A stretch of 61,881 nucleotides of DNA from the NCBI GenBank assembly GCA_005791535.1, contig SXWH01000058.1:1-61881 (forward strand), written 5' to 3'. The notes under the pieces are model-generated. The model worked only from the letters and a program-made list of their open reading frames with translations, did no database searches and was not told the DNA's origin. The DNA is from Verrucomicrobiaceae bacterium. GTDB taxonomy: Bacteria; Verrucomicrobiota; Verrucomicrobiia; Chthoniobacterales; Chthoniobacteraceae. Shown piece by piece: positions 2,851-20,368 of the stretch; positions within the stretch are counted from its first letter, which is position 1, and every line of letters begins with the position of its first letter. Made by a program: the position numbers and the translations under genes.

Positions 2851-3585
2851 ATGCCGCAGATTTTTCAACGCGGAGCGAACCTCGTTCCGCTCAAGATTCT
2901 CCTTGTTCTCGGGGCTTTAGCCACGGGCGCCGTGGGGGCGGTGTGGTATTATTTCACACCTGAATACACGAAGGTCGGCTACCAGCCTTCGCAGCCGATT
3001 CCGTTTTCGCACAAGGTGCACGCGGGGCAGTTGAACATCGACTGCCGCTTCTGCCACAGCTTCGCGGATTCCGGCGCGCATTCGAATCTCCCGTCCACGC
3101 AGCTTTGCATGGGCTGCCACACGCAGGTGCAGAAGGATAGTCCGAAACTCGAGCCGCTGCGCCAGGGTTGGGCCTCGGGCAAGGGTGTTCCGTGGGTGCA
3201 GATCCACAAGACGCCGGACCACGCGTATTTCAATCACTCGGTCCATATCAACCGCGGTGTGTCGTGCGTGGAATGCCACGGTCGCGTCGATCAAATGGAC
3301 GTCGTCTATCAGGCGAAGTCGTTGACCATGAATTTCTGCCTCGAGTGCCATCGCGCTCCTGAGAATGCGCTGCGTCCGCTGGACAAGGTGACGGACCTCG
3401 GATGGAAGGCGCCGACGCAGGCAGATGAACTGGCTTCGCTGCTCGGCACGACGCCGGATAAATTGAAGCTGAAGGCGGGCGATCAGCTGACGCCCGGCAA
3501 GGCCCAGAAAGTCATGGGCGAACACTTTAAAGTTCAGCGCGGGGTGCTTCCGCCGGACAGCAATTGTGCTGGCTGCCACCGCTAA
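2851..3585 (+). CDS. actA: ACIII subunit ActA, pentahaem cytochrome c
   Basis: A 244-residue membrane-anchored multihaem cytochrome of Alternative Complex III, the quinol:electron-acceptor oxidoreductase that replaces bc1 in many bacteria. It has an N-terminal membrane segment at about 12-32 and five CXXCH haem c sites at 65-69, 86-90, 139-143, 163-167 and 239-243, matching the pentahaem ActA pattern. It sits on the periplasmic side and carries electrons from the ActB iron-sulfur centres. It is the first gene of the operon, 12 bp before actB, and lies just downstream of the CRP-like palindrome. The start is the first ATG after the spacer. Confidence 0.93.
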   Translation: MPQIFQRGANLVPLKILLVLGALATGAVGAVWYYFTPEYTKVGYQPSQPIPFSHKVHAGQLNIDCRFCHSFADSGAHSNLPSTQLCMGCHTQVQKDSPKLEPLRQGWASGKGVPWVQIHKTPDHAYFNHSVHINRGVSCVECHGRVDQMDVVYQAKSLTMNFCLECHRAPENALRPLDKVTDLGWKAPTQADELASLLGTTPDKLKLKAGDQLTPGKAQKVMGEHFKVQRGVLPPDSNCAGCHR

Positions 3586-3597
3586 CCGACACGGACC

Positions 3598-6500
3598 ATG
3601 AGCAAACGAGTTTTTGAACATCCGCAGGAAGAAGCCAATGGGCCGCAGTATTGGCGCAGCTTCGGGCAGCTCGCGAAGACGCCTGAATTCAAGGAATGGC
3701 AGGACCGTGAGTTTCAGGCCGGCGCGGCCGATTTGAACCCCGAAGTGGGTCGCCGCGACTTCATGAAATACATGGCGGCGAGCGCAGCGCTCGCCGGGCT
3801 GTCGCTGAGCGCATGCCGTCGCGAGGAGAAGACGCTGGTGCCTTTCGCGCAGACCGCGGAGTGGACGATTCCGGGCAAGCCGTTGTTTTACGCGACCTCG
3901 CGTCCGCATCGTCGCGGTGCGATCCCGCTGGTGGCCACGACGCATGACGGGCGTCCGACCAAAGTGGACGGAAATCCCGCGCACGGCACAAACAAAGGTG
4001 CGACGGATTTGCAGACTCAGGCTTCGTTGCTCGATGCTTACGATCCGGACCGCTCGCGCCGCTTCCAGCTTGATGGCAGGGAATCAACGGAGGCTGATTT
4101 CACGAAGTGGCTAGCCGGCGTTGTGGAGAAGGCCGGAGACGGACAGGGGATTGCGTTTTTGACCGAGCATTTCACCTCGCCGACTTACGCGCGCTTGAAA
4201 AAAGCGGTCGCGGCGAAGCTGCCGAAGGCGATGTGGGTTGTGTATGAGCCGCTGGGTGGCTCGGAGTCCGGCACGGCACAGGAAGCGGCGTTCGGCGAAG
4301 GTTTCCGTGCGGTTCCGCAGATCGACAAGGCCGACGTGATTTTGTCGCTCGACTGCGATTTCCTCGGTATGGACGAAGGTCGTCTCGAAGGCATCCGTGC
4401 GTTTTCCGCGCGCCGCAAGCCGGAGCAGAAGATGAATCGTCTCTACGTCGTGGAGAATCGATACACGACGACCGGCGGCATGGCAGACCACCGTCTGCGC
4501 TCGCAGGCCGGTAAAGTGGGCGCGGTGGCCCGTGCGTTTGCCGAGAAGATTGCGGCGGCGACGAATGATGCGGCGCTGAAGGCTGTCGTGGAAGCGTTCC
4601 CGAAAGTCGCGACCGACGCGGACGCGAAGTGGATCGAGGAAGCCGCGAAGGATTTGGTGGCGCAAAAGGGCAAGGCGCTCGTGCTAGTTGGCTATCGCCA
4701 GCCCGCAGCCGTTCAGGCGCTCGGATTTGCAATCAATGCGGCGCTCGGCGCTCTCGGCGAGACGCTCGTCGGACGCAAGACGCATGGACATGGTGGCGGG
4801 ACCACAATCGCCGACCTGACGAAGGCGCTCAACGACAAGCAGGTCAAAACGCTGTTCATCCTCGGTGGAAATCCGGTTTACAACGCGCCCGGCGATCTGA
4901 ATTTTGCGGCCGCAATCAAGAACGCCGAAGTCGTCCGTCACGGCTTCTACGAAGACGAAACAACGTATTCGGTCGATGTTGATGAAGACGGCAAGGTCAC
5001 AAAGCGCAACTTTGTGAAATGGCACGTCCCGGCTGCGCACTATCTCGAAGCATGGGGCGACGGCACGGCCAGCGATGGCTCTCATGTCTCGCAGCAGCCG
5101 ATGATTCTGCCGCTCCTTGGCGGATGGTCGGAAATCCAACTGCTCAATTTCATCCTCACCGCCAAGAAATCGGAGGGCTTGGAACTCGTTCAGGAGACTT
5201 TCAATGCTGTGGCGCGCGGAATCGACGCCGTGTCATGGGCGAAATTCCTGCGCGACGGCTTCCTTCCCGCCGCCGCGCCGCGTGAACCGCTTGCGTTCAA
5301 CAGCGCATCGGCCGCGCAACTCGCTGCGAAGTACACCGCTCCTGCCGAGGGGACGGAGGTTGTTTTCGCCGCCTGCCCGAAGGTCGATGACGGACGTTTT
5401 TCGAACAATGCCTGGATTCAGGAAATGCCGGATCCCGTCACGAAGGTGACCTGGGACAATGCGGCGATCATCAGCCCGAACACGGCGATCAAGCTGGGCC
5501 TGTCTGCGACGCAAGGAAACGGAAAATTCGAATTCAGCAACGGTGCATGGATCACCGTAGAGGTCGGTTCTGCGAAGCTGGACGTTCCGGTCGTCATCAT
5601 CCCCGGCACGGCGGATGACAGCATCACCATCGCCCTCGGATACGGTCGCACGCACGAAGGTCGCGTGGGCGGACGCGAGGGCAACTACATGTCGCACGGC
5701 GGTCTCTTTGCGAAGAAGAGTCAGGTCGGTTTCAACGCCTACCCGCTGCGCACCACCGCGAACCACTATTTTGCAGCGGCAAAGGTCCGGAAGTCGGAGC
5801 AGTCAGCGTATCAGCTAGCCATCACGCAAGAACACGGAGCGCTCGAAGGCCGCGGACCGGATGTCTATCGCGAAAGCACAGACCCGAAATTCAACGCCCG
5901 CGACAAGCATTGGCTGCACGAGAAGCACGCGATGGACGCGCACGCCGAGGAGTTTGACGCGAAGGGTTATCCCGCTGCGCGCAGCGCTTATTCGAATCCG
6001 CCGCTGAATGACAAAAATCATCAGTGGGCAATGGCTGTGGACCTCTCGGTTTGCACCGGTTGCTCGGCCTGCATGATTGCCTGCCAGAGCGAGAACAACA
6101 TTCCCGTTGTTGGCAAGGAACAGGTCATCGAAGGCCGCGAACTCCACTGGATCCGCATGGACCGCTACTTCGTCACTCCGATGAATGCGCGGGAGGACAA
6201 GACGATCGACTTTGAAAAGACCCGCATGGTCATGCAGCCGATGCCCTGCCAGCATTGCGAGAATGCGCCTTGCGAAACGGTCTGCCCGGTGAACGCCACC
6301 GTCCACAGCGACGACGGCCTCAACGTGATGGCTTACAATCGATGCATCGGCACGCGCTACTGCGCGAACAACTGCCCGTTCAAGGTGCGTCGCTTCAACT
6401 TCTTCGACTTCAACGAGCGCCAGAAGGACAAGTATTTTGTCCCGAACATCGTGAACGAGAAGGGTATGGCGGAAACGCTCAAGCTCTCGAAGAATCCAAA

Positions 6501-6849
6501 CGTCACCGTCCGCATGCGCGGTGTCATGGAAAAGTGCACATTCTGCGTCCAGCGCGTGCAGGAGGCGAAGATCGCCGCCAAGGTGAAAGCCAAGGACAGC
6601 AGCGATGTGAAAGTTCCGACCGACGCATTCAAGGTCGCCTGCCAGCAGGTCTGTCCGACGGGTGCCATTACGTTTGGAAACAAGCTCGATGCGAAGAGCG
6701 CCGTCAGCCGCGATATCGACAATCCCCGCGCCTACCGTGTGTTCGACTACCTCGGCATCAAGCCGCGCGTTCATTATCTTGCCCGTATCATGAATCCAAA
6801 TCCCGCGATGCCCGACGCACCGAAGGAAGAGAAAGGAGCGCACGCTTAA
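3598..6849 (+). CDS. actB: ACIII subunit ActB, molybdopterin-oxidoreductase-like/FeS fusion
   Basis: A 1083-residue fusion typical of ActB. Residues about 50-75 form a Tat-like signal ([14 protein letters not shown]). About 80-760 resemble a molybdopterin oxidoreductase, which in known ACIII carries no molybdenum cofactor. The C-terminal third is a ferredoxin-like domain with cysteine clusters starting at C819 ([11 protein letters not shown]), C884 ([13 protein letters not shown]), C916 ([11 protein letters not shown]), C980 (CTFC) and C1015 (CQQVC). That gives 15 cysteines, as expected for three [4Fe-4S] and one [3Fe-4S]. It moves electrons from quinol oxidation to ActA and ActE haems. The stop overlaps the actC start (TAATG), suggesting translational coupling. 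Confidence 0.95.
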
Positions 6850-8324
6850 TGGCTACCGCTTCACACAATACGTCCGAGGACGGAGTAGTTGTCCTGCATT
6901 GCCCGCCGGAACTCGCGAAGATTCCGCTGGTCAATCACGACCGCTCGCTCGGCTGGATCACGGAGAATGTTGCGTCCATCTGCGAAGAAAAGACCCGCCG
7001 CTACTGGTGGATTGGTTTCTTCCTCTTTGCGCCAATCGCGCTTTTGGTGCCGACCTTGCTCTCCTATCAGGTCGCAAACGGCGTCGGTGTCTGGGGCGAA
7101 AACCAGCCGTTCGGCTGGGCGTGGGACATCACGAACTTCGTGTTCTGGATTGGTATCGGTCACGCAGGAACGCTCATTTCGGCGATTCTGTTTTTGACGC
7201 GCCAAAAGTGGCGCACTTCGATCAATCGCGCTGCCGAAGCGATGACGCTCTTTGCGGTTATGTGCGCCGGTCTCTACCCCGGCTTCCATGTCGGTCGCTT
7301 CTGGAAAGCTTGGTATCTATTCCCGATTCCGAACTGGAACGGCATCTGGCAGAACTATCGTTCGCCGCTGCTCTGGGACGTGTTCGCGGTTTCGACCTAC
7401 TTCACGGTTTCGGTATTGTTTTGGTATGTCGGCCTGATTCCCGACCTCGCCACACTGCGCGACCGCGCGAAGTCCAAAATCAAGCAGTTCGCTTACGGCG
7501 TCGCTGCGCTCGGATGGCGCGGCGGCAACCGCCACTGGCAGCATTACGAAATGGCGTATTTGATCCTCGCGGGTCTCTCCACGCCGCTCGTTCTCTCGGT
7601 GCACTCGATCGTGTCATTCGACTTTGCGACGTCGGTCGTCCCCGGCTGGCACACGACCATCTTCCCGCCCTACTTCGTCGCAGGCGCTATTTTCGGCGGC
7701 TTCGCAATGGTGCTCACGCTCATGCTTCCGGCGCGGCTTTTCTATCCGCAGCTCGACGATATGATTACGCGGAACCACGTGGACAAGATGGCGAAGATCA
7801 TCCTGCTCACCGGCACCATCGTTGGCTACGCATACCTGATGGAGCTCTTCGTAGCGCTCGTTTACTCGGGAAATTTCTACGAATCGAACGCTTTCTACAA
7901 TCGCGCCACCGGCTGGTATGCATGGCATTACTACGCGATGATGTTCTGCAACGTCATTTCGCCTCAGATTTTCTGGAGCAAAAAGATGCGCCACAATTAC
8001 ATCGTGGTGTTCATCGTCTGCCAGTTCGTCAATGCGGGTATGTGGTATGAGCGGTTTGTGATTATTGGAACTACGCTGGCGCAGGACTTCCTGCCTTCCT
8101 CGTGGGGTCACTACACACCGTCGTGGGTGGAGGTCTTTACCTTCATCGGCACGTTCGGAATGTTCATCACACTGTTCCTTCTCTTCATGCGCTTCCTGCC
8201 GATGATTACCATCTTTGAGGTGAAAGCCGTGAAGCCTGAGGCCGACCCGCATTTCCACCCGGAAGGCGATCACGGTCACGACAGCCACGCAACTGCAAAG
8301 CCGAAGGAGGCGGCAGCTCACTAA
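6849..8324 (+). CDS. actC: ACIII subunit ActC, NrfD-like quinol-binding membrane protein
   Basis: A 491-residue polytopic membrane protein of the NrfD/PsrC family. About ten hydrophobic helices are visible from about residue 55 to 465. ActC is the main quinol-oxidising and possible proton-translocating subunit. The ATG at 6849 overlaps the actB stop by one base; an in-frame opening further upstream lies entirely inside actB and is rejected. The C-terminus is histidine-rich ([17 protein letters not shown]), a tail shared in style with the His-rich N-termini of oxidase subunits I and IV further along. It is followed after one base by actD. Confidence 0.94.
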
Positions 8325-8325
8325 C

Positions 8326-8889
8326 ATGGCCGAATTCAAAAAACTATTCGCCCTCGGTGCTGAGTTCAACAGCGCCACGGAAATCTACAACGCGGCGGAG
8401 AAGGTCCGTGACGCCGGCTACACTGTCTGGGACTGCCACTCGCCCTTCCCGATTCACGGGATGGACAAGGCGATGGGTATGAAAAAATCCTGGCTGTCTG
8501 CATTCGTGTTCGTCTGCGGTTTGACGGGATTCCTCACCGGTCTCGGACTCGTCACCATCACGAGCTTCGGCATTTATCCAACTATCGTGAACGGCAAACC
8601 GAATGACTGGGAGCATGGCTTGCGTGCGCTGCAGTTCTTCTTCCCCGTCATGTATGAGCTGACGATTCTCTTCAGCGCATTCGGTGCGGTTTTTGGAATG
8701 ATTATCCGCAACGGTCTCCCGCGCCTTCACCACCCGCTCTTTAACTGGAGCCGCTTCGGCAAGGTGACGGACGACAAATTCTTCCTCGTCATCGAAAGCC
8801 GCGACCCGCAGTTCTCGGAGACCAAAACCAAAGCACTGCTCGAAACGCTCGGCGGCGCTCACATCACGCCAGTTTACGACCGGGAGTAA
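8326..8889 (+). CDS. actD: ACIII subunit ActD (DUF3341)
   Basis: A 187-residue DUF3341 protein. It has a soluble N-terminal part (about 1-55) and two hydrophobic helices at about 58-82 and 102-125, separated by a short loop, with a soluble C-terminal part. This is the standard ActD layout. In known ACIII structures ActD is an integral subunit packed against ActC without its own redox centre. The start lies one base after the actC stop. It ends three bases before actE. Confidence 0.92.
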   Translation: MAEFKKLFALGAEFNSATEIYNAAEKVRDAGYTVWDCHSPFPIHGMDKAMGMKKSWLSAFVFVCGLTGFLTGLGLVTITSFGIYPTIVNGKPNDWEHGLRALQFFFPVMYELTILFSAFGAVFGMIIRNGLPRLHHPLFNWSRFGKVTDDKFFLVIESRDPQFSETKTKALLETLGGAHITPVYDRE

Positions 8890-8892
8890 GCC

Positions 8893-9558
8893 ATGATTCT
8901 TAAAATCGGATTTGGAGCACTCATCATTACAGGCGTCGCAGCCCTCGGGCTCGCGGGGTTCCGCGGCCAGAAAGGCGAGCAGACGCACGTGGAATGGTTC
9001 AACGACATGGCTCATCAGCCGAAGGTAAATCCGCAGGTGCGGAGCGATTTCTTCGCTGACGGTCGCGCGGAGCGCAAGCCGGTCGCCGGAACCATCCCGA
9101 TCGGATACAACATCGCGGGAACCTATTACCAGAACGACGGTAACAATCTCGGCACGGGAGTGGGCGCATTTGCGAATCAGCCCGACTACCTCAACACCGG
9201 TCGCATCGGCGAATTCTACGGTGATGGTATCCCGGAGAACCTCGCCTCCCGCGGAGCTGACCTCGTCAAGCGCGGTCAGGAGCGTTACGGTATCTACTGC
9301 AGTCATTGCCACGGAGTCGCGGCGAAGGGCAACGGCCCGGTCAAAGCCTTCGGCCTCATGACGGTCGCCGACCTGACCAGCGAGCCGATGCGGAAACAGC
9401 CTGACGGGCAAATCTTTAACACCATTACCCATGGCAAAAACACGATGGGTGCGCTCGGGCCGATTGTCACGATCGAGGACCGCTGGGCCATCGTATCCTA
9501 CCTCCGCGCACTGCAGAAGGTTGCCGAGGGCAAATTGAACGTCGCTGAAAAGAAATGA
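8893..9558 (+). CDS. actE: ACIII subunit ActE, monohaem cytochrome c
   Basis: A 221-residue protein with one N-terminal membrane segment (about 4-24) and a single class I cytochrome c domain. CSHCH at 136-140 binds haem, and the methionine in GKNTMG (about 185) is a likely axial ligand. ActE is a monohaem cytochrome in ACIII and a candidate exit point for electrons towards the oxidase. In some organisms ActE is a lipoprotein; no lipobox cysteine is present here, so it is probably anchored by the uncleaved helix. The stop overlaps the actF start (ATGA). Confidence 0.92.
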   Translation: MILKIGFGALIITGVAALGLAGFRGQKGEQTHVEWFNDMAHQPKVNPQVRSDFFADGRAERKPVAGTIPIGYNIAGTYYQNDGNNLGTGVGAFANQPDYLNTGRIGEFYGDGIPENLASRGADLVKRGQERYGIYCSHCHGVAAKGNGPVKAFGLMTVADLTSEPMRKQPDGQIFNTITHGKNTMGALGPIVTIEDRWAIVSYLRALQKVAEGKLNVAEKK

Positions 9559-10760
9559 GTCACCACATCGCCATACCGAACTCCGAGAAGTTCGACTCGA
9601 AAAAGGCTGCGTCTCTGAAAACCATTTTTCAGTTGATGGCCGTCATCGGGTTGATTGGAGCCGGCATCGTCGGCTTCGCGAGCCCGAAACTGTTCGCATT
9701 TAGCTGGCTGTTCGCCTTCTTCTTCGGCTTTACCATTTGTCTCGGCTGCTTCTTCTGGAACTGCCTGCATCATGCGACGGATTCCGAATGGTCCGTCGTC
9801 ATCCGCCGCCAGATGGAGAACGTCTCGGCGCTCCTGAAGGTCGTTGCAGTCCTGTTCATCCCGATCGCTGCGATTCTCGTGGTTAAACCCGACCTCCTCT
9901 ACTCGTGGATTAAGCCGCACCTTGAAGACTCCCTCATGCAGGGAACGAAGGGGAAATATTTGAACATCAGCTTCTTCTGGGTTCGTGCCATTGGAATCTT
10001 TGGACTTCTGTTCCTGCTCTCGACCGTGCTGCGCAATCGCAGCATCGCACAAGACGCGGACGGTGCCGCAAAGCACACATTCACAATGCGCAAGGCGGCA
10101 ATCGCCGGCATTCCGGTGATGGCCCTTTCGGTAACGTTTGGCGGTATCGACTGGCTCAAGTCGCTCAACCATCACTGGTATTCCACGATGTGGGGCGTTT
10201 ACCTCTTCGCTGGTGCCGCGGGTAGCTCGATGGCCGTGATTATTCTCGTTTGCAAATGGCTCAAGAGTCTCGGCTACCTCAAGCCAGTGACCGAGGAGCA
10301 CTTCCACACGATGGGTAAGTTCATCTTCGCGTTCACGGTGTTCTGGGGATATATCGGCTACAGCCAGTACATGCTCATCACTTACGCGAACATCGATGAG
10401 GAAACGATTTACTTCCGCCTTCGCAACACCGAGTCGTGGACCTACCTCAGCCATTTCCTCGTGTTCGGACGCTTCTTCTTCATGTTCGTCCCGCTCCTCT
10501 TCCAGGGAGTGAAGAAGAGCAGCAAAATCATCTTCTGCGCATCGTGGATTATCCTGATGCAGTGCCTCGACCTCTTCATGATTATCATTCCCGAATATGC
10601 GCCCGGCGGCTTCTCGTTCACCGGTCTCATCGCCTGCGGAATCGCCTGGCTGGCCGTGGTGGGAATTCTCGGCACCTTCTTTCTGCGCCACCTTTCGGAG
10701 GGATATCTTTTCCCGACCAAGGATCCCCGTCTGGCCGAATCACTGAAACTTACGAACTAA
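9555..10760 (+). CDS. actF: ACIII subunit ActF, NrfD-like membrane protein
   Basis: A 401-residue polytopic protein with about ten hydrophobic helices, homologous in type to ActC but shorter. ActF is the second membrane subunit of ACIII and is thought to take part in proton movement rather than in quinol binding. The ATGA overlap with actE supports this start. It completes the six-gene act set in the usual order A-B-C-D-E-F. Confidence 0.93.
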   Translation: MSHHIAIPNSEKFDSKKAASLKTIFQLMAVIGLIGAGIVGFASPKLFAFSWLFAFFFGFTICLGCFFWNCLHHATDSEWSVVIRRQMENVSALLKVVAVLFIPIAAILVVKPDLLYSWIKPHLEDSLMQGTKGKYLNISFFWVRAIGIFGLLFLLSTVLRNRSIAQDADGAAKHTFTMRKAAIAGIPVMALSVTFGGIDWLKSLNHHWYSTMWGVYLFAGAAGSSMAVIILVCKWLKSLGYLKPVTEEHFHTMGKFIFAFTVFWGYIGYSQYMLITYANIDEETIYFRLRNTESWTYLSHFLVFGRFFFMFVPLLFQGVKKSSKIIFCASWIILMQCLDLFMIIIPEYAPGGFSFTGLIACGIAWLAVVGILGTFFLRHLSEGYLFPTKDPRLAESLKLTN

Positions 10761-10761
10761 C

Positions 10762-11460
10762 ATGCGCCACAACGTCACCACACCGGGTGGATTTTTCGTA
10801 GGACTCGGCGGAATCGCCGCGTTCTGCGCAGTCTCTGCCGGTGTTTACCTCTGGGTGAGCAAACCCGCCGCCAGCACGGAACTGGAGCCGCAAAAAACGG
10901 CGCTCGGTCTCGTCTCCAAGGAAAAGGAAAAGCAGGTTGAAATCGATGCGCTGCTCGCGGCTGCTTCGAACGATTACAACGGCGGAAACAAGATTAACCT
11001 CAACAACATCGATGACCTCCGTGGAGTGGTTCGGCATCGTGAAGCCGCGAAATCGGCGAAGGACGCAGAGCTCCTTACTGCAAAGTCGAACGTCGAAGGA
11101 AAGACCGTTCTCGAAGCAGCGATTGCCCAGGTCGTGACCGAAATCGCAGCAAAGAAACCGGCGGCGAGTGCCGTGAAAATCGACTTGAATGCACCTGCTG
11201 CCGACGCTCCGCTGTCGATGCCCAATTTGCAGGGACGCGGAACGAGCACGATGACGTTCCCGCCAATCACCGCGCCGGCTTCAACAACAACGCCAGCTGC
11301 GCCCGCGACCGACACCTTGGAGAAACCCAAGGCCGACGCGGCCCCTGCTCCGGCACCCGCGCCTGCACCGCAGGCTGCTACCGCAACTCCGGCACCCGCG
11401 ATTGCCGCGGTTCCGGCTCCTAATCGTCCTCCGCTTCTTAACTGGTCTGACTCGAAATGA
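10762..11460 (+). CDS. Pro/Ala-rich single-pass membrane protein, function unknown
   Basis: A 232-residue protein with one membrane helix (about 10-32), a charged region (about 50-130) and a low-complexity Pro/Ala/Thr tail (about 165-225) that ends in a short conserved-looking stretch, RPPLLNWSDSK. No haem, copper or iron-sulfur motif is present. It lies one base after actF and overlaps the CcoN-like gene (ATGA), so it is translated with the supercomplex genes. A scaffolding or tethering role in the ACIII-oxidase assembly is an inference from position only. Confidence 0.75.
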   Translation: MRHNVTTPGGFFVGLGGIAAFCAVSAGVYLWVSKPAASTELEPQKTALGLVSKEKEKQVEIDALLAAASNDYNGGNKINLNNIDDLRGVVRHREAAKSAKDAELLTAKSNVEGKTVLEAAIAQVVTEIAAKKPAASAVKIDLNAPAADAPLSMPNLQGRGTSTMTFPPITAPASTTTPAAPATDTLEKPKADAAPAPAPAPAPQAATATPAPAIAAVPAPNRPPLLNWSDSK

Positions 11461-13064
11461 CCGATTCTCAAAACATCCTGCCTGCCGCGAGCGTGGCAAC
11501 TCCGACGGCAACTGCGCCTGAACCTGCAAAGGCTGTGGCGAAAGTCCAAACTGCACCAACAGCGAGCCCTGAATCCGTCGAGCGCGCGATTATCGACCAA
11601 TCCGCAAAAGGCCCGGTCCTGACATTCTTCAGCACCGCCATTTTCTGGCTGATTGTTTCGACCTTCCTCGGATATGTGGCATCGCGAAAGCTCCACACAC
11701 CGAACTTCGTTCCCGGGCCCGAATGGCTTTACAGCCTGCTCGGAGTCGACGGGATCATTCGCTCAATCTTCGACACGAACTTTACCTACGGACGTGTCTG
11801 GCCTGCCTACAACACGGCGCTCATCTACGGATGGTGCTCGCTCGCCGGAATGGGTGTTGCGACTTGGCTGATCGGACGCCTTTGCCGCGTCTCCATCCAG
11901 GCTCCGGGCGTTCTGCAGCTCGGCGCATGGTTCTGGAATGCCGGTGTGGCGCTTGGAATCGTGTTGCTTCTGGCGGGATACAACACCGGACTCGAGTATT
12001 TCGAAATCCATCGTGCCGCCCGGGCGTGCATCTTCATCGGCTACCTGTTCATCGGAATTTGGGGCCTGATTCTCTTCCGCTACAAGCGGACTGCTGCACC
12101 CTACATCTCGGTGTCTTACCTGGTAGCGGGATTTTTCCTGTTCCCTTGGTTCTTCGGTGCGGCGGATTTGCTCACGAGCGCACAGTTGCCGGGCGTGATG
12201 AAGAATGTTGTAAACGCATGGTTCCAGGGCGGACTGTTCAATCTGTGGATTGGGACGCTTGGCCTTGCAGCGGCATATTACTTCATCCCGAAAGTCATCA
12301 ACCAACCCATTTACAGCTACAACCTCTCGAAGATCGGATTCTGGGGCTGGGTTTTCCTCGGCGGCCTTACCGCGATGACAAAACTAAACGGTGGTCCCGT
12401 GCCGGCATACCTCGTAACGCTCAGCATCGCGGCGAGCATTCTGTTGATCATCCCAATCGCCTGTCTCACCGTCAATTTCGGACGTACGATGACCGGTCAC
12501 ACGGAAAAGATGGCGTATTCCCCGACACTGCGTTTCACCTACGTCGGCACCGTGTTCTTCGCAATCGCGGCAGGACTCTCCGTCCTCGGTGCGCTGCGTT
12601 CGGTGAATAGCTTCACCGGCTTTACGACGTGGGATTACGGTGTCAAACACGCGCTCGTAATCGGATTCTTCAGCATGGTGATGTTTGGCGCGATTTACTA
12701 CATCACGCCGCGTCTTGTCGGTTGTGAGTGGTTGAGCCGCACATTTATCAAACTTCACTTCCTCGGCACGGCCTACGGTGGTGCGACCATTATCGCGCTC
12801 TTCCTCATCGGTGGTCTTGCAACCGGTTTCACGCTCCACAACCCGACGGTGGACGTCACGGCTGCATACACTGCGCGGGAATTCACATTCGCAAACGTCG
12901 TGCAGGACGCCGGCGCATATCAGGCGGTGAAGTCGTACATCGGCTACACGTTCTTCGGGCTCGCGCAGTTGATCTTCGCGGTTCACTTCATGTTCATGCG
13001 TCTGCGCATCGGCCAGCCGGCCGGCGAGCCGACGCTTCTGGCCAACCCGGGGGAGGCACACTAA
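11457..13064 (+). CDS. CcoN-like haem-copper oxidase subunit I homologue lacking metal ligands
   Basis: A 535-residue protein with about 12-13 hydrophobic helices, clearly homologous to cbb3 oxidase subunit CcoN: GRVWPAYNTALIYGW, AYYFIPKVINQPIYSYNLS and FGAIYYITPRL align without gaps to CcoN landmarks (alignment by eye against my recollection of Pseudomonas CcoN). Yet five of the six canonical metal-binding histidines are replaced. The TM2 low-spin haem His becomes Y118, the three CuB His become G258, T308 and K309, and the high-spin haem His becomes V396. Only H398, the TM10 low-spin haem ligand, remains, and the cross-linked Tyr position is G302. It cannot be a normal oxidase. A structural role or a different cofactor is possible. 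An extra Ala/Pro-rich, probably cytoplasmic N-terminus covers about 1-50. Confidence 0.85.
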   Translation: MTDSQNILPAASVATPTATAPEPAKAVAKVQTAPTASPESVERAIIDQSAKGPVLTFFSTAIFWLIVSTFLGYVASRKLHTPNFVPGPEWLYSLLGVDGIIRSIFDTNFTYGRVWPAYNTALIYGWCSLAGMGVATWLIGRLCRVSIQAPGVLQLGAWFWNAGVALGIVLLLAGYNTGLEYFEIHRAARACIFIGYLFIGIWGLILFRYKRTAAPYISVSYLVAGFFLFPWFFGAADLLTSAQLPGVMKNVVNAWFQGGLFNLWIGTLGLAAAYYFIPKVINQPIYSYNLSKIGFWGWVFLGGLTAMTKLNGGPVPAYLVTLSIAASILLIIPIACLTVNFGRTMTGHTEKMAYSPTLRFTYVGTVFFAIAAGLSVLGALRSVNSFTGFTTWDYGVKHALVIGFFSMVMFGAIYYITPRLVGCEWLSRTFIKLHFLGTAYGGATIIALFLIGGLATGFTLHNPTVDVTAAYTAREFTFANVVQDAGAYQAVKSYIGYTFFGLAQLIFAVHFMFMRLRIGQPAGEPTLLANPGEAH

Positions 13065-13760
13065 ATGGAAACACCGAGCACACTTTTCACCGGCATCCTT
13101 GGAGCGTTCATCGTTTCCACAGGCGCGATGGTTTTGATTCCACACAGCCAGTTGAGTGGACTTCAGCCGCAGGTGGTTTGGGAAGAGAACCAGAACGCTC
13201 CGAGCGACGTCTATCCGTCGAAAATCGAGCATAGCCTCGGACAGCGCCACGGTCAGCGCATCTTCGTTGAGAACGGTTGTTTTTACTGCCACACGCAGCA
13301 GATTCGCGACCCGCAATTCGGTCCCGATGTCGAGCGCGGTTGGGGGCCTCGTCGTTCCGTTGCCCGCGATTACATTTATCAGGATACGCCTCTTCTCGGC
13401 GCGACGCGTCTTGGGCCGGACCTTGCGAACTACGGCTGGCGTGATTCGGAAGGAAAGCGCTTCTGGCGAAACGAACAGCCGAAGGAAGCTGAGCAAATCG
13501 TCCGCGACGAGGCGTTCATCTACAAACACCTGTTCAATCCCCGCGCGCGGATTTCCAATTCAAACTGCCCGTCAAATCCGGCGCTCTTCGAGCAGCGGGA
13601 AATCGGCTCCGGTGTTTCGCCGAATGCGGTGAAAGTCGAGAATGGCAAGCAGTGGGTGCCCACCGCGTCTGCCCGTAATCTTGCTGCGTATCTCCTTTCA
13701 CTCGACCGCAGTCATGAACTCAAGGAGGCGCCGGTCGCCAAGAAGGAGGCAAAGAAATGA
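13065..13760 (+). CDS. CcoO-like monohaem cytochrome c
   Basis: A 231-residue protein resembling cbb3 subunit CcoO. It has an N-terminal membrane anchor (about 7-27) and a haem site, GCFYCHTQQIRD, with CFYCH at 72-76. In CcoO the sixth haem ligand is a methionine in a segment like SxMPxYPWL. Here the matching segment is SNCPSNPALF, placing C168 at the methionine position. It starts directly after the CcoN-like stop and overlaps the next gene (ATGA). It is probably the partner of the unusual CcoN-like protein and may relay electrons or act structurally. The identity is clear; the ligand change is seen by manual alignment only. Confidence 0.85.
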   Translation: METPSTLFTGILGAFIVSTGAMVLIPHSQLSGLQPQVVWEENQNAPSDVYPSKIEHSLGQRHGQRIFVENGCFYCHTQQIRDPQFGPDVERGWGPRRSVARDYIYQDTPLLGATRLGPDLANYGWRDSEGKRFWRNEQPKEAEQIVRDEAFIYKHLFNPRARISNSNCPSNPALFEQREIGSGVSPNAVKVENGKQWVPTASARNLAAYLLSLDRSHELKEAPVAKKEAKK

Positions 13761-14992
13761 GCCAGCCAAACGAAGGACAAGATCGTATTGATTACCTCGA
13801 AACGTCGGACATTACCGAAGTCCACGCATCCATCGCGCGCGAGCACGCGGAACCGCGGTCCGGCACAATGCCAATCCCAACGTGGCTGGGAGTGCTCTGC
13901 GCAGGCGCACTGTGCTGGGCTGGTGCCTACATCGGCGTGTTCCACGGTGGATTCAGTTCGTCGGTCTACAACGAATACGAAAGCAGTCCCGTAGCGTTTT
14001 TCCCGTTGCCGAAGACCGACGGCGGAAATGGTGCCGGTGCGGCCGAACTCCCGCTCGTTCAACTCGGGCAGAAAGTTTATACCAAGAACTGCGCGGTCTG
14101 CCACCAGCCAACCGGCGTAGGACAACCCGGAGCAGTCCCGCCGCTTGCAGGATCCGAGTGGGTTGACGGAAGCGAAGCGAGCGAGAAGCGCCTCCTGGCC
14201 ATTCTGCTCCACGGAATTACTGGTCCTTTGACCGTGAAGGGCGCGAGCTATAACAGCGCGGCGATGCAGGGATTCGGCGCTCAGATGAAGCCACGTGAGC
14301 TGGCAGGTGTTCTGACCTACATCCGTCAGGAGTGGGGGAACAAGGCCGGCGAAGTAACGGAAGCTCAGGTGCTCGCAGCCAAGAAGATGTTTGCCGACAA
14401 GGTCGGTGCCTACACGGAAGCCGAGATCAAAGCGATTCCCGTGACGGACAAAATTGAAGGCGGCGCACCCGCTGGCGATGCGAAGCCGGTTGCCGACGCA
14501 AAACCAGCCGGTGATGCGAAACCTGCTGGCGATGCAAAGCCTGCCGCTGGTACTCCTGCTCCGTCGGCTGGCTCGTATGATTTGGCGGCGTCCGTTGCGA
14601 ATGGAAAGACGGTCTATATGCAGACCTGCATGGCCTGCCATCAGCTTACAGGAATGGGCGTTCCCGGAGCATTTCCGCCTCTTGCAGGAACGGAGTTTGT
14701 CTCGGGCGACACGCGCAGACTCGTGGCGATCGTGCTCAAGGGAATCACTGGTCCATTGAAGGTAAATGGAACCGTCTACGCAACCGGAATGCCGAACCCG
14801 GAGTTGTCATTCCCAATCCTGAAGGAAGACAAAAATGTTGCGGACGTATTGAACTACGTTCGGAGCAACTGGGGGAACAAACCTGAGCCTGTGATCACTC
14901 CCGAGTTCGTCGGAAAAATCCGCGACGAATTCAAATCCAAGACCGACCAGTGGACGGAAGCGGACCTTCTCAATTTCCCTGCAGCAAAGTAA
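13757..14992 (+). CDS. Membrane-anchored dihaem cytochrome c
   Basis: A 411-residue protein with a membrane helix at about 43-63 and two class I cytochrome c domains. The first has CAVCH at 112-116 and the second CMACH at 291-295. Between them lies a flexible linker with repeated AKPAGD units (about 235-270). The two-domain layout recalls CcoP, the usual third partner of CcoN and CcoO, though the domains look more like small caa3-associated cytochromes. The second domain is closely similar to the free cytochrome encoded next, even at DNA level, which suggests a recent duplication. Likely role: electron transfer from ACIII to CuA. Confidence 0.86.
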   Translation: MSQPNEGQDRIDYLETSDITEVHASIAREHAEPRSGTMPIPTWLGVLCAGALCWAGAYIGVFHGGFSSSVYNEYESSPVAFFPLPKTDGGNGAGAAELPLVQLGQKVYTKNCAVCHQPTGVGQPGAVPPLAGSEWVDGSEASEKRLLAILLHGITGPLTVKGASYNSAAMQGFGAQMKPRELAGVLTYIRQEWGNKAGEVTEAQVLAAKKMFADKVGAYTEAEIKAIPVTDKIEGGAPAGDAKPVADAKPAGDAKPAGDAKPAAGTPAPSAGSYDLAASVANGKTVYMQTCMACHQLTGMGVPGAFPPLAGTEFVSGDTRRLVAIVLKGITGPLKVNGTVYATGMPNPELSFPILKEDKNVADVLNYVRSNWGNKPEPVITPEFVGKIRDEFKSKTDQWTEADLLNFPAAK

Positions 14993-15013
14993 CCGGAACA
15001 AAGCAAAGAATCT

Positions 15014-15499
15014 ATGAAAACACTCATCATCGCTCTCGCTCTCACCGCAACAGCAGCCTTCGCTCAGGAGGACATTAAAGTCTCCGCAGATCGTGGAAAA
15101 GCCGTTTACATGCAGACCTGCATGGCCTGCCACCAACTCACCGGAATGGGCGTCCCCGGCGCTTTCCCTCCGCTCGCCAAGACCGATTATGTTACGGGAG
15201 ACACCCGCCGTCTTGTCGCGATCGTTTTGAAGGGCATTACCGGACCCATGACTGTGGATGGAAAAATCTACGCCACGGGAATGCCGCAGCCCGAGTTGAC
15301 CTTCCCAATCCTGAAAGAGGACAAAAACGTCGCGGACGTGCTGAACTACGTGCGCACAAGCTTCGGTAATGAAGCAAAGGAACCCATCACACCGGAATTC
15401 GTCGCGGAAGTTCGCAAAGAATTCGCCGCCCGCACCACTCAGTGGACTGAGGCGGAATTGAAAGCATTCCCGGCAAAGGGCACCGCTCCGGCGAAGTAA
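15014..15499 (+). CDS. Periplasmic monohaem cytochrome c
   Basis: A 161-residue exported cytochrome c with a cleavable signal peptide (about 1-18, ending TAAFAQ) and one haem site, CMACH, at about 36-40. The methionine in YATGMPQPE is the probable axial ligand. The mature protein is nearly a copy of the C-terminal domain of the preceding dihaem cytochrome, sharing for example VYMQTCMACHQLTGMGVPGA. As a soluble form it could shuttle electrons or replace the domain of the anchored protein. It is preceded by a 21-bp gap and followed by 55 bp before the oxidase subunit I gene. Confidence 0.88.
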   Translation: MKTLIIALALTATAAFAQEDIKVSADRGKAVYMQTCMACHQLTGMGVPGAFPPLAKTDYVTGDTRRLVAIVLKGITGPMTVDGKIYATGMPQPELTFPILKEDKNVADVLNYVRTSFGNEAKEPITPEFVAEVRKEFAARTTQWTEAELKAFPAKGTAPAK

Positions 15500-15554
15500 T
15501 TAAATACGCCGCGCCAGGAACGGATGCGGCAAACCTGAATACAGAACGAACATT

Positions 15555-17474
15555 ATGGCTCAAGACCACGCTCATGACGCCCATGGTCATCACGATGACC
15601 ACGGACACGACCACCACGAGCTAGGCTTCTGGCGCAAGTGGGTCTTTTCCACAGACCACAAAGTCATTGGCATGCAATACACCGTGACGGGACTCGCGTT
15701 CCTGTTCTTCGGTTTCATGCTGATGCTGCTCATGCGCTGGACCATTGCCAAAGGTGGCGCAGAGCCCCTTCCGACTGGTCTTGGCGAGTTAATGTTTAAT
15801 ATTTTCGGCGATGACGTCTTCACCGCCGTGATGAAAGACGGTAAGCAGGTCGGCTACACGCTGTCCTCGCAGGGTTACAACGTCTTTGGCGCCATGCACG
15901 GCACCATCATGGTGTTCTTCGGCATCGTGCCGATTGCGATGGCTGGGTTTGGCAACTTCGTGATGCCGCTGCAAATCGGCGCAATCGACATGGCCTTCCC
16001 GCGCCTGAATATGGCGAGCTTCTGGTGCTTCTTCGTGAGCTGCATCTTCATGGTCGCGAGCTTCTTCGTTCCAGGCAGCGCTGCGAAATCCGGTTGGACA
16101 AACTACCCGCCGCTCGCGGGAATCGCCGACCTTCCGGGAAGTGTCGATGCCTCGGGCGACTTGCTTGGGGTGTGGACAAACGGTGGCACGCTCTGGCTGC
16201 TGGGCATGGTGTTCAACATCACGGGCTCGCTTCTCGGTTCGATCAACTTCATCACGACCATTGTCCAGCTTCGCGCTCCGGGTATGACGTGGGGACGACT
16301 CCCGTTCTTCTGCTGGGCGCAGTTCATCACGGCCTATCTGCTTCTCCTCGCATTCCCGCCGCTTGAATCGGCCGCTGTGATGAACCTGTTTGACCGGGTC
16401 TTTGGTTCATCGTTCTTCCAGCCAACCGGCCTCGTGGTGACGCAGGCTGCGACGGCTGCGGGAATCGTGCCGCATTACTCTGGAGGCGGTTCGCCAATCC
16501 TCTGGCAGCACCTTTTCTGGTTCCTGGCGCATCCGGAGGTGTACGTGCTCATTCTGCCCGGTATCGGCATGATTACGGAAATCATCGCCTGCAACACCCG
16601 CAAGCCTATCTGGGGCTACAAGGCAATGGTCGGCGCTGTGTTCGTTCTCGCGTTTCTCTCGTTCATCGTCTGGGCGCACCACATGTATATGACCGGAATG
16701 GGGCCGAAGGTATCGGCATTCTTCCAGACGACGACGATCATGATTTCCGTTCCATCGGTCATCCTGCTCACCGCGTTGCTGCTGTCGCTGTGGGGCGGTT
16801 CGATTCGGTTCAATACGCCGATGCTGTTTGCCACTGCATTCCTTCCGATGTTCGGAATTGGAGGGCTCACCGGCATCCCGCTCGCATTCAATGCGATCGA
16901 CCTCTACATGCACGACACCTACTACGTGATCGCGCACTTCAACAACGTCGTCGCGCCGGTAACCATCTTCGCGATTTTCGCGGGTTGCTATCACTGGTAC
17001 CCGAAGGCGACCGGTCGTTTCATGAGTGAGTTCTTGGGCAAGGTCCACTTTTGGGGCTCGCTTGTATTCATAAACATCCTGTTCTTCCCCATGTTCATTC
17101 AAGGCATGGGCGGCGTGCATCGCCGGTGGTGGGATGGTGGACTGACCTATAAGGGAACCGTTGAGAATGTTTTGCACCTTAACAGTTGGTCATCATGGGG
17201 TGCTTGGGGGCTAGCCGCGTTCCAGCTCGTTTTCGTCTTCAACTTCTTCTACAGCATCTTCCGCGGTAAGAAGGTGCCGAACGATAATCCGTGGAATGCC
17301 ACGACGCTGGAGTGGGATACCCCGACTCCGCCGCCGCATGGCAACTTCACCAAACCAATCACCGTTTACCGGAACGCTTACGAATACAGCGTCCCCGGTG
17401 CGGAGAAGGACTTCACACCGCAATCCGAGCCGCCGGCCGGCACTCCCGCCGCGCAGCCTGCACCCGCGCATTAA
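15555..17474 (+). CDS. ctaD: aa3-type oxidase subunit I (CtaD/CoxA) with altered haem a and K-channel sites
   Basis: A 639-residue terminal oxidase subunit I with about 12 helices. Residues 5-22 are extremely histidine-rich. The binuclear centre is intact: H326-P-E-V-Y330 (CuB His, cross-linked Tyr), H375-H376 and H461 (haem a3). The TM2 haem a ligand is present as H115, and the paired arginines in GVHRRWW are kept. Two key positions differ: the usual HFHYV reads HFNNV, so the second haem a ligand is N463, and the K-channel lysine is replaced by L404 (ISVPSVILLT where families have IPTGxKV). The D-channel Glu E328 is kept. It probably reduces oxygen, but with modified electron and proton delivery. 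Substitutions were judged by eye against A-type oxidases. Confidence 0.92.
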   Translation: MAQDHAHDAHGHHDDHGHDHHELGFWRKWVFSTDHKVIGMQYTVTGLAFLFFGFMLMLLMRWTIAKGGAEPLPTGLGELMFNIFGDDVFTAVMKDGKQVGYTLSSQGYNVFGAMHGTIMVFFGIVPIAMAGFGNFVMPLQIGAIDMAFPRLNMASFWCFFVSCIFMVASFFVPGSAAKSGWTNYPPLAGIADLPGSVDASGDLLGVWTNGGTLWLLGMVFNITGSLLGSINFITTIVQLRAPGMTWGRLPFFCWAQFITAYLLLLAFPPLESAAVMNLFDRVFGSSFFQPTGLVVTQAATAAGIVPHYSGGGSPILWQHLFWFLAHPEVYVLILPGIGMITEIIACNTRKPIWGYKAMVGAVFVLAFLSFIVWAHHMYMTGMGPKVSAFFQTTTIMISVPSVILLTALLLSLWGGSIRFNTPMLFATAFLPMFGIGGLTGIPLAFNAIDLYMHDTYYVIAHFNNVVAPVTIFAIFAGCYHWYPKATGRFMSEFLGKVHFWGSLVFINILFFPMFIQGMGGVHRRWWDGGLTYKGTVENVLHLNSWSSWGAWGLAAFQLVFVFNFFYSIFRGKKVPNDNPWNATTLEWDTPTPPPHGNFTKPITVYRNAYEYSVPGAEKDFTPQSEPPAGTPAAQPAPAH

Positions 17475-17493
17475 GCAGAATATTTAGCGAACA

Positions 17494-18675
17494 ATGGAAA
17501 TCCCATACACAGTCCGGCCACGTCCCGATACGGGCCTCGCGAATCCGAAGCTCGGCATCTGGCTATTTCTGGCATCGGAAGTCATGCTCTTCGGCGGTCT
17601 CTTCGCCGGTTACATCTTCATGCGCCTCGGTGCTGAACCGTGGATGTGGCCGAAAGGCTGGCTGAATGTGCCCGTCGGCACCTTCAATACCTTTGTCCTC
17701 ATCCTCTCGTCAGTGACCGTTATTCTCGCTTGGGAATCGCTCAAGCTGCGGAACCTGAGGGCATACAAGGTCTGGCTCGCTGTAACATGGATCTGCGGCT
17801 TGCTCTTTCTCACGATTAAATTGTCCTATGAATGGCCCGCGAAGTTCCATCACTTCGGTGCCTACATCCAAAAGACCGCTGCGGAGAAGTACGAACCGCT
17901 CCTTGGAAACGACAAGCACGAAGGCAAGGACGGACACATTGGACGGAAAGGATACCCTCGCCTCTTCATCGGCGGTCACTTGGACTTGGAGAACGACAAG
18001 GACGCCATGAAGGCCTCCAGCGTGCCGTTCATCCCGGAAGCGAACCTCAACTCGGTCCTGGCACTTGGTAAGGACGAAAAGGATCCCGCGAAGCAAGCGA
18101 AGCTCTTCCACACTCGCGATGAAATGCTCAAGCAGATCGTCGTTCGTGAGGCGGACATCATTGCATTGAAAGCTCCGGACCTTGACCCGAAAAAGAAGGC
18201 CGAGATCCTGCATCGCATGAACACCATCAGCGTCCACAAGGTGGATGCCGAGAATGCAAAGCCTTACGACCCCGACAATGATAAGGCGCACTTCGTGCCG
18301 CGCGATCAGGTCCTGATTTCGGATCTCGGTCTCAAGGACAGTCCGATCGTCCACTCCGTAAAGGATGCGAAAACCGGCAAGGAAGACCAGCATCTGATCA
18401 TCGACAAACGTGACCTCGTCGCGGGCCATGGACCGCTCGTGCCGAAACTGAATACTTATCTGGCTACCTACTTCATGATTACCGGCCTCCACGGAGCGCA
18501 CGTGCTGGCGGGTTGCATTTGCTTCATCTACTTCTGGCTCCCAATCAAAGGTGGCTCAAAGCTCTTCTATACCAACCCTGAACAGCTCTGTAACCGCATC
18601 GAAGTGTCCGGTCTCTTCTGGCACTTGGTTGACCTCATCTGGATCTTCGTATTCCCAATCTTCTATCTCCTGTAG
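17494..18675 (+). CDS. ctaE: Oxidase subunit III (CtaE/CoxC) with a large insertion
   Basis: A 393-residue subunit III, about twice the usual length of about 200 for the five-helix form. Helices lie at about 20-42, 62-80, 92-111, 320-345 and 370-392, and family signatures are present (LGIWLFLASEVMLFGGLFAG and YFMITGLHGAHVLAG). Between helices three and four lies a charged insertion of about 190 residues (about 125-315) without recognisable domains or cysteines. From the expected topology this loop faces the periplasm. Subunit III stabilises proton uptake by subunit I; the insertion could contact the cytochromes or ACIII. It is 19 bp after subunit I and 5 bp before subunit IV. Confidence 0.9.
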   Translation: MEIPYTVRPRPDTGLANPKLGIWLFLASEVMLFGGLFAGYIFMRLGAEPWMWPKGWLNVPVGTFNTFVLILSSVTVILAWESLKLRNLRAYKVWLAVTWICGLLFLTIKLSYEWPAKFHHFGAYIQKTAAEKYEPLLGNDKHEGKDGHIGRKGYPRLFIGGHLDLENDKDAMKASSVPFIPEANLNSVLALGKDEKDPAKQAKLFHTRDEMLKQIVVREADIIALKAPDLDPKKKAEILHRMNTISVHKVDAENAKPYDPDNDKAHFVPRDQVLISDLGLKDSPIVHSVKDAKTGKEDQHLIIDKRDLVAGHGPLVPKLNTYLATYFMITGLHGAHVLAGCICFIYFWLPIKGGSKLFYTNPEQLCNRIEVSGLFWHLVDLIWIFVFPIFYLL

Positions 18676-18680
18676 CGACC

Positions 18681-19094
18681 ATGTCCGATCATTCCACACC
18701 TGCAGAGCACAAGCACGATGCCCACGGGCATGAAGGTCATCACGGAAGTTTGATGAGCCACAGCAAGGTTTACCTTATCATAGGCGCTCTGTTGTTTATT
18801 TTCACCGTAATCACTGTCGCGCTCTCCTACATTGATTTTGCGCATATTGGCATCTTCAAGTGGGCGTTCGGGTTGGTCGGTCTGAAGGGCGATGGCATCA
18901 ACATCGTGATCGGTCTGATTGTCGCGACGTTTAAAGTCTGCCTCGTCGGTGCGTGGTTCATGCACTTGAAGCAGGAGACCATGCAAATCTGGCGTCCACT
19001 GTTGTTCACGTTCTTCTTCGTGTTCGCGCTCTTCATGCTCTTCGTGCTCGCGTATCTCGATCCGATCCCGTCGAGTTCGCACTGGTTCCACTAA
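18681..19094 (+). CDS. ctaF: Oxidase subunit IV, prokaryotic type (CtaF/CoxD)
   Basis: A 137-residue membrane protein with three hydrophobic helices (about 30-52, 72-92, 98-122) and the subunit IV signature GAWFMHLKQE. The N-terminus is histidine-rich (HKHDAHGHEGHHG), like subunit I. The role of this small subunit is structural. The position directly after subunit III is the normal order. Confidence 0.88.
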   Translation: MSDHSTPAEHKHDAHGHEGHHGSLMSHSKVYLIIGALLFIFTVITVALSYIDFAHIGIFKWAFGLVGLKGDGINIVIGLIVATFKVCLVGAWFMHLKQETMQIWRPLLFTFFFVFALFMLFVLAYLDPIPSSSHWFH

Positions 19095-19522: not shown

Positions 19523-20368
19523 ATGACGATTGCCGCAATTTCCGACTGGCTCGACCTGAACAAGCTCATGGGCATCCTGCCCAACCACTCCGAGCATGGT
19601 AAGGAAATCGACCACATGCTGAACTTCTGTCACTGGTTCATGCTGATTCTATTCGTGGGATGGTTGTCCTACTTCGTTTACACGCTCTGGCGTTTCCGCG
19701 CTGGTCGCAATCCGAAGGCGGACTACCACGGTGTGACGAGCCACGTATCGACCCACCTTGAAGCAAGCGTTGTCATCGTGGAAGCAGTCATCCTTCTCGG
19801 GTTTGCGATTCCGTTGTGGGGCAAGCGCGTGAACGAAATCCCGACCGACGAAAAGAACCCGCTCCGTATTCGTGCAATCGGCTACCAGTTCGGTTGGTTC
19901 TTCCACTACGCCGGGCCGGACCAGAAGTTCGGTGCGCAACACCCTCGTTTTGTCGGCGGTGGAAACAATCTCGGCATCGATCCGAACGATCCGAATTCCG
20001 CGGACGACGTCGTTGTGACGAGCAACATGCATCTGCAAAACAATCGCGCCACCGTCGTGCGTGTCAGCAGCCGCGACGTGATTCACGGCTTCTGCCTCCC
20101 ACAAATGCGCGTGCAGCAGGACGCGACACCGGGCCTCGAAGCGCCGATGTGGTTCAAGCCGATTACCACGGGCGCTTGGGAAATCATCTGTGCGCAGCTT
20201 TGCGGCGCAGGCCACTTCGGCATGCGCGCGGATTACACAGTCGAAGAGCAGAAGGACTTCGACGCGTGGTTCAAGGACCAGCAGGACGCGACGCAAAAGG
20301 TTTTTGCGGCACAGCGTGAGACGCTGAAGAAGCAGGCTGCGGAAGCCGCTGCTCCAGCGCATCACTGA
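19523..20368 (+). CDS. ctaC: Oxidase subunit II with CuA centre (CtaC/CoxB)
   Basis: A 281-residue subunit II with two membrane helices (about 35-57 and 80-100) and a periplasmic cupredoxin domain. The CuA ligands are present: H188 (VIHGF), C223 and C227 (CAQLC), H231 and M234 (HFGM). The aromatic electron-entry stretch YQFGWFFHYAG lies at about 121-131. There is no fused cytochrome c domain, so the separate cytochromes upstream must supply electrons. Unusually the gene comes after subunits I, III and IV rather than before subunit I. It begins one base after the preceding stop. Confidence 0.93.
   Translation: MTIAAISDWLDLNKLMGILPNHSEHGKEIDHMLNFCHWFMLILFVGWLSYFVYTLWRFRAGRNPKADYHGVTSHVSTHLEASVVIVEAVILLGFAIPLWGKRVNEIPTDEKNPLRIRAIGYQFGWFFHYAGPDQKFGAQHPRFVGGGNNLGIDPNDPNSADDVVVTSNMHLQNNRATVVRVSSRDVIHGFCLPQMRVQQDATPGLEAPMWFKPITTGAWEIICAQLCGAGHFGMRADYTVEEQKDFDAWFKDQQDATQKVFAAQRETLKKQAAEAAAPAHH

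Follow-up and report, generated by a model that had tools for sequence, protein, structure and literature searches.

The CcoN-like gene of the window (by which we mean the whole stretch of 61,881 nucleotides that was analysed) encodes a homologue of subunit I of the cbb3 oxidases, with a predicted cbb3 fold but without the cbb3 metal site. Our preferred reading, to which we give a probability of about 0.6, is that it comes from a former oxidase linked to alternative complex III (ACIII), in which catalysis was lost and CcoN was kept as a scaffold for CcoO and cytochromes c. At roughly even odds we would go further and suggest that in Verrucomicrobiota two or more such conversions, probably three, have made an oxidase a catalytically silent wiring subunit of ACIII that carries cytochromes c to a separate oxidase, that the cbb3 annotated in methanotrophs is the same thing and leaves them with no working C-type oxidase, and that His/Cys ligation is possible in CcoO of the window's clade.

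The window comes from an assembly of 294 contigs with 86.6% completeness. The genes of interest form a single run on one strand, in which actABCDEF is followed by a gene for a 232-aa protein, then CcoN, CcoO, two cytochromes c, coxA, coxC, coxD and coxB, so that the ACIII gene cluster and the cox genes of an oxidase belong to one neighbourhood. The ActA to ActF names are what we take these genes to be from knowledge of the family, applied to gene order and sequence.

2851..10760, + strand: actABCDEF, ACIII, from order and sequence
2851..3585, + strand: ActA
3598..6849, + strand: ActB
6849..8324, + strand: ActC
8326..8889, + strand: ActD
8893..9558, + strand: ActE
9555..10760, + strand: ActF
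10762..11460, + strand: 232-aa protein encoded between actF and the CcoN-like gene; hydrophobic stretch at the N-terminus, tail rich in Pro and Ala
11457..13064, + strand: CcoN-like subunit I of 535 aa without the haem b, haem b3 and CuB ligand sets, from Pfam, phmmer, alignment, AlphaFold and Foldseek
13065..13760, + strand: CcoO/FixO-like mono-haem cytochrome c, CxxCH at residues 72-76, Cys168
13757..14992, + strand: CcoP-like cytochrome c, third in the cassette, CxxCH present twice, N-terminal hydrophobic stretch seen by eye
15014..15499, + strand: cytochrome c with one CxxCH, from motif and family match
15555..17474, + strand: CoxA, aa3-type subunit I, from NCBIfam match and comparison with relatives
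17494..18675, + strand: CoxC
18681..19094, + strand: CoxD-like
19523..20368, + strand: CoxB, CuA motif seen by eye

The 232-aa protein matched no family in Pfam and NCBIfam scans, and is matched at the equivalent position in all nine close loci (L004-L012).

The CcoN-like frame is open and undamaged. The Pfam COX1 model (PF00115) matches residues 54-487 with 120.5 bits, and the NCBIfam ccoN model (TIGR00780) gives 102 bits, missing its cut-off of 583 by far. In the PDB phmmer matches it to CcoN of P. stutzeri (3mk7_A, 90 bits), seven residues of which we take to have the haem, CuB and cross-link roles in cbb3. In the phmmer alignment six of these are replaced in the window (His60 by Tyr118, His207 by Gly258, Tyr251 by Gly302, His257 by Thr308, His258 by Lys309 and His345 by Val396) and only His347 has its counterpart, His398. 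The bis-His pair for low-spin haem b is reduced to Tyr118 and His398, the haem b3 histidine is Val396, the three CuB histidines are Gly258, Thr308 and Lys309, and the cross-linked tyrosine is Gly302. MAFFT alignment with relatives gives identical ligand columns, and neither alignment puts any other histidine at the haem or CuB positions. A shifted alignment that would restore histidines is ruled out, as the flanking GR..P, GGPxP and GFFSMVMFG align gap-free. Sequencing damage and chance are also ruled out as the cause of ligand loss, since the same six sites are non-canonical in all eight close relatives whose columns can be read (L004-L010 and L012).

The fold is preserved in prediction, with an AlphaFold model of pTM 0.85 and mean pLDDT 82.3 for which the best Foldseek match is again 3mk7_A (TM 0.89 by target). 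A preliminary description of this DNA had claimed five replaced haem and CuB histidines, with only His398 kept and Gly302 at the tyrosine site, in an undamaged frame with an intact fold, and all of this was borne out. The window protein resembles P. stutzeri CcoN in predicted fold, homology and gene order (CcoN, CcoO with its mono-haem CxxCH, cytochrome c), but six of the seven active-site residues present there are missing. With these gone the known haem b3/CuB site could not form, and the protein is almost certainly not an O2 reductase. It is a CcoN by descent; in function we do not count it as a cbb3 oxidase, because the ligands that define one were tested for and are absent.

The state is a common one. 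A first scan of genome contigs gave 61 loci, and a survey of the phylum searched 288 genomes, of which 80, the source genome included, had a match. Of the phylum loci 59 were used (at least 147 bits), each with about 9 kb per side where the contig allowed, and four loci of family f9 were added. For the 20 phylum genomes with lower scores (best match at most 115 bits) four were read, one being ligandless (G265) and three keeping all seven residues (G127, G035 and G216); the other 16 are outside the counts. Also dropped before counting were L048, whose ORF is cut, L063, in which a ligand column is empty, L011, which has unknown bases and is ligandless in the columns that can be read, L002, a canonical form truncated at the end of its contig, and OUT_L161 (wrong frame). 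The 122 usable sequences, window included, fall into two sets with nothing between: 65 keep all seven residues, 57 keep 0-3, and none keeps 4-6. Among the 57, which we call ligandless, 11 keep none of the seven residues, 39 one, 5 two and 2 three. By position (window numbering) the residues kept are Tyr302 and His308 in none, His396 in 1, His258 in 8, His398 in 12, His309 in 14 and His118 in 20. The two that keep both low-spin haem b ligands are L095 and L096, in which the haem b3 and CuB ligands are lost. We found no description of a ligandless CcoN beside ACIII among open-access papers, going by titles and the starts of abstracts.

A genuine cbb3 appears to be encoded elsewhere in the source genome, as L002 (contig 230) is a canonical-looking CcoN, cut by the contig end, in which the first ligand motifs, RPLHTN and YGHN, are present.

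The tie to ACIII, also proposed in the preliminary description, is borne out. All 59 phylum loci (38 ligandless, 21 intact) lie beside act genes, with ActF in 59/59 and ActC within 56 of the 59 stretches, and overall act genes are beside CcoN in 56 of the 57 ligandless loci, the exception being L060, where the contig begins at the gene. In the window's class 53 genomes, its own included, match the window ActC with at least 600 bits in one piece, and 52 of them carry a CcoN-family gene; the remaining one is G008. Outside the class G046, G126 and G235 have such an ActC match and no CcoN-family match (G235 only 92 bits), so that ACIII without a CcoN-family gene does exist. Where the flanks analysed hold no act genes, the relatives (mostly from Betaproteobacteria and Gemmatimonadota) are intact as far as they can be read, with the exception of L060. 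Two ActC-like matches per genome were seen in one family (G042, G054, G072, G152 and G265), which would be a second ACIII or a related complex.

Intact CcoN is found in the same setting. L097, L118, L013 and L014 have the same operon position and partners as the window protein, to which they are 36-39% identical, and differ from it in keeping all seven residues; L013 and L014 are from Planctomycetota, with the order act-CcoN-CcoO-cytochrome c. As intact relatives occupy this place in other Verrucomicrobiota and in two Planctomycetota, the ligandless form is, on the sequence comparison, derived. A maximum-likelihood tree was built without the seven ligand columns from 86 of 128 aligned rows, near-duplicates having been removed by hand (OUT_L161 was in a first, quick tree only). 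The best tree has three ligandless groups, which require three changes by parsimony, with intact outgroups; we named them clades A, B and C after the tree was seen. Clade A, with the window, has 35 of the 57, clade B has L026, L059, L060 and L129, and clade C has 18. A single clade for all 50 ligandless rows of the tree is rejected by the AU test (p-AU 0.0007), which rules out one ancestral loss. The union of A and B (p 1.3e-6) and that of B and C (p 0.008) are also rejected. That of A and C is not (p 0.056), so that two losses would suffice, and we put the number at two or more, with three on the best tree. Clade A has support 86/81. L098, which is intact and has cox genes already in its operon, is its sister with weak support (75/45 for the union). 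L144 moved from clade B in the quick tree to clade C in the careful tree.

The distribution of other oxidases bears on how the site came to be lost. CoxA lies within the stretch taken around the gene in 15 of 38 ligandless phylum loci and in 1 of 21 intact ones. Of the 23 ligandless phylum loci with no CoxA in the stretch, 18 make up the whole of clade C, one is in clade B (L129) and four are in clade A (L095, L096, L112 and L130); the clade B loci L026, L059 and L060 likewise have none. In these the electron acceptor must be unlinked. A rule that CoxA in the operon means a dead CcoN is only partly true, given the 15/38 and the intact L098 with CoxA. Looking at whole genomes, a further COX1 match of at least 418 bits is present in all 39 ligandless genomes examined versus 17 of 21 intact ones, for which the one-sided probability is about 0.012, uncorrected for kinship and with the 418-bit line drawn after the tables had been seen. 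In G001 and G146 the ACIII-linked intact CcoN is the sole COX1 match. The contrast fits the idea that loss of the site required the presence of another oxidase.

In the window CoxA is the likely true oxidase partner. HPEVY, the HH pair and the final two histidines are conserved in all of 35 distinct CoxA relatives (31 in linked clusters and 4 elsewhere), and the pattern of the first haem a histidine is in 33 of them, being unmatched in L098 and L139.

We suggest the following course. ACIII, as is established for the family, oxidises menaquinol and passes the electrons to haem c. The ancestor would have been an active ACIII-linked oxidase of cbb3 type, with an act-CcoN-CcoO-cytochrome c operon in which CcoO and the third cytochrome fed CcoN's own site. 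Once an aa3-type oxidase was available as acceptor the haem and copper site of CcoN could be lost while the fold and the partners stayed, and ligandless CcoN would now be a redox-silent membrane scaffold that holds the haem c domain of CcoO beside ACIII. The CcoP-like cytochrome, which has a match after CcoO in 57/59 phylum loci, is probably held by the same scaffold. The electrons would then enter an aa3 oxidase through the CuA domain of its CoxB; in the window's group the genes of that oxidase lie alongside. What the analysis shows is the ligand loss, the fold (by prediction), the kept CcoO haem c motif, the gene linkage, purifying selection and repeated loss, whereas the place of CcoN in a supercomplex and the electron path are inferred. 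This comes closest to the structural bridge between ACIII and oxidase that the preliminary description offered as one option, and we find that role the best fit. Speaking against the scaffold are the ligandless loci that have no CoxA in the stretch, the frequent loss of the CcoO methionine, the long ligandless branches with their few retained positions, the lower omega of CoxA, and the change at Trp254, all given in this report.

The alternative that fares best, which we still consider unlikely, is that CcoN binds one haem with an unusual ligand pair and acts as an electron relay within the membrane. The pair Tyr118 and His398 is present in the window, in L004-L010 and in L012, the pair His118 and His398 in L095 and L096, and Glu180 and Glu183, invariant among intact forms, are kept in the window. 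However no ligand pair is common to the ligandless clades, with His398 in 12/57 and both histidines in 2/57, and Arg115 is lost in 53/57, the window included. In addition Gly262 (64/65 intact, 4/57 ligandless) and Gly497 (65/65 and 2/57) have mostly given way to bulkier side chains, with Asn, Phe, Leu, Trp and Tyr frequent among them, which looks like a filling of the space of the haem, if these positions line it as we infer. Counting against a simply filled pocket is Trp254, invariant in intact forms and Ala in 35/57 ligandless ones. The single unusual cofactor that was earlier put forward finds some footing in the Tyr118 and His398 of the window clade but does not extend to ligandless forms in general.

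Turning to CcoO, it adjoins CcoN in 59/59 phylum loci, and its CxxCH is kept in 57/57 ligandless loci, both of which could point to CcoN as an assembly or stability factor for CcoO alone, outside the final electron-transfer complex. Linkage to act is equally tight, with ActF found in as many loci as CcoO, and we hold this to be quite improbable. The S-x-M-P methionine of CcoO, which we take to be the axial haem ligand for this fold, is present in 65/65 intact partners versus 33/57 ligandless partners. Of the 24 that lack it 18 have Cys, among them the window (Cys168, codon 13566-13568); Cys is found in the window clade and in L112, L114-L117, L131, L132, L135 and L138. As the methionine has gone in 24/57 the haem may have another role, and CcoO of the window clade may have His/Cys haem c ligation.

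An ion- or quinone-handling module coupled to ACIII, to which the proton handling raised in the preliminary description belongs, would account for retention of a large polytopic fold, and cofactor-free NrfD-like subunits that interact with quinones are mentioned in PMC8076601. Among the 110 positions that intact forms conserve, 33 are still at least 90% conserved in ligandless ones. Most of these are aromatic, Gly or Pro, and the charged residues and His among them are Asp47, Arg113, Arg141, Lys279, Arg419 and His434. We consider such a module very improbable.

The preliminary description also held that the gene is under selection, though not as an oxidase, and the substitution rates agree. 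In window-clade pairs with dS below 1, CcoN omega is 0.056 (L004-L010), 0.075 (L009-L012) and 0.142 (L007-L008), in the ligandless pair L121-L123 it is 0.055 (dS 0.85), and in two ligandless pairs with dS above 1 it is 0.084 and 0.140. These are six of eight ligandless pairs; L116-L117 and L133-L136 were excluded for implausible CcoN identities of 35% and 31%, presumably due to a wrong cut. Two of four intact pairs gave 0.029 and 0.064, the other two being saturated. In the six ligandless pairs ActF and CcoO have omega similar to CcoN, and CoxA is lower in all six. On these values the ligandless CcoN gene is under purifying selection. A decaying relic, merely co-transcribed and on its way out, would suit the long ligandless branches and the many relaxed positions, but with frames of at least 461 aa in all ligandless loci except L060 (where the contig starts inside the gene), omega below 0.15 and near that of ActF and CcoO, even if CoxA is lower, and the gene kept across whole families, it is just as improbable as the ion or quinone module.

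There are partial parallels to a protein of this kind. CydA' and similar proteins are inactive paralogues of cytochrome bd subunit I that lost catalytic ligands while the gene was kept, which is like ligandless CcoN in both loss and retention, although the superfamily is different. To our knowledge the CcoN-CcoO pair is absent from the ACIII-aa3 supercomplex of Flavobacterium johnsoniae. That supercomplex (Sun et al. 2018, as cited in PMC8498564) is, as presented there, like the window cluster in having ACIII with an oxidase of aa3 kind. On our preferred scaffold reading, which predicts a new kind of ACIII supercomplex, the loci would form a natural series from intact, through intact with a second oxidase alongside, to ligandless, in which an energy-converting enzyme becomes a structural part of another complex.

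There is also a warning for annotation, as a cbb3 oxidase called by homology next to ACIII may be a mistake in Verrucomicrobiota, including the methanotrophs. Five genomes of family f9 have genes that belong to the AMO/pmoA family (PF02461). In G265, G042, G054 and G072 a ligandless CcoN lies downstream of actF, followed by a CcoO-like gene with a haem c motif, one for a cytochrome c, and then coxA. In the fifth genome, G008, the search found no match to this CcoN. An intact C-type oxidase was not found among the COX1 matches of the four genomes. Two of the other matches there score 428-437 bits and resemble aa3. One or two more, at 249-270 bits, read as B-type: L185, L187 and L188 do so by eye, and L177-L179 hit no ccoN model and fit CoxA and SoxB models best. 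The last, at 177-199 bits, looks NO-reductase-like by eye in L181 and L186, though an NCBIfam scan of L181-L183 gave no family. The loci reported in verrucomicrobial methanotrophs are likely the same as those in these four genomes, and with all four ligandless and no other C-type oxidase found the reported "cbb3 beside ACIII" is probably not an oxidase.

Some details of individual loci may be added. In L154 there is a 140-aa ORF between actF and CcoN. L168 (G072) has about 7 kb of extra DNA between ligandless CcoN and ActF (about 10820-18088), where L154, L166 and L167 have about 0.4 kb or less. Finally, window CoxA has AHFNN where all 35 distinct relatives have HFHY or HIHY (residues 463-464, 16941-16946). 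The histidine lost aligns with the second His of AHFHY in 6pw0, which we take to be a haem a ligand, and this change, seen only in the window, would be either an assembly error or real damage.
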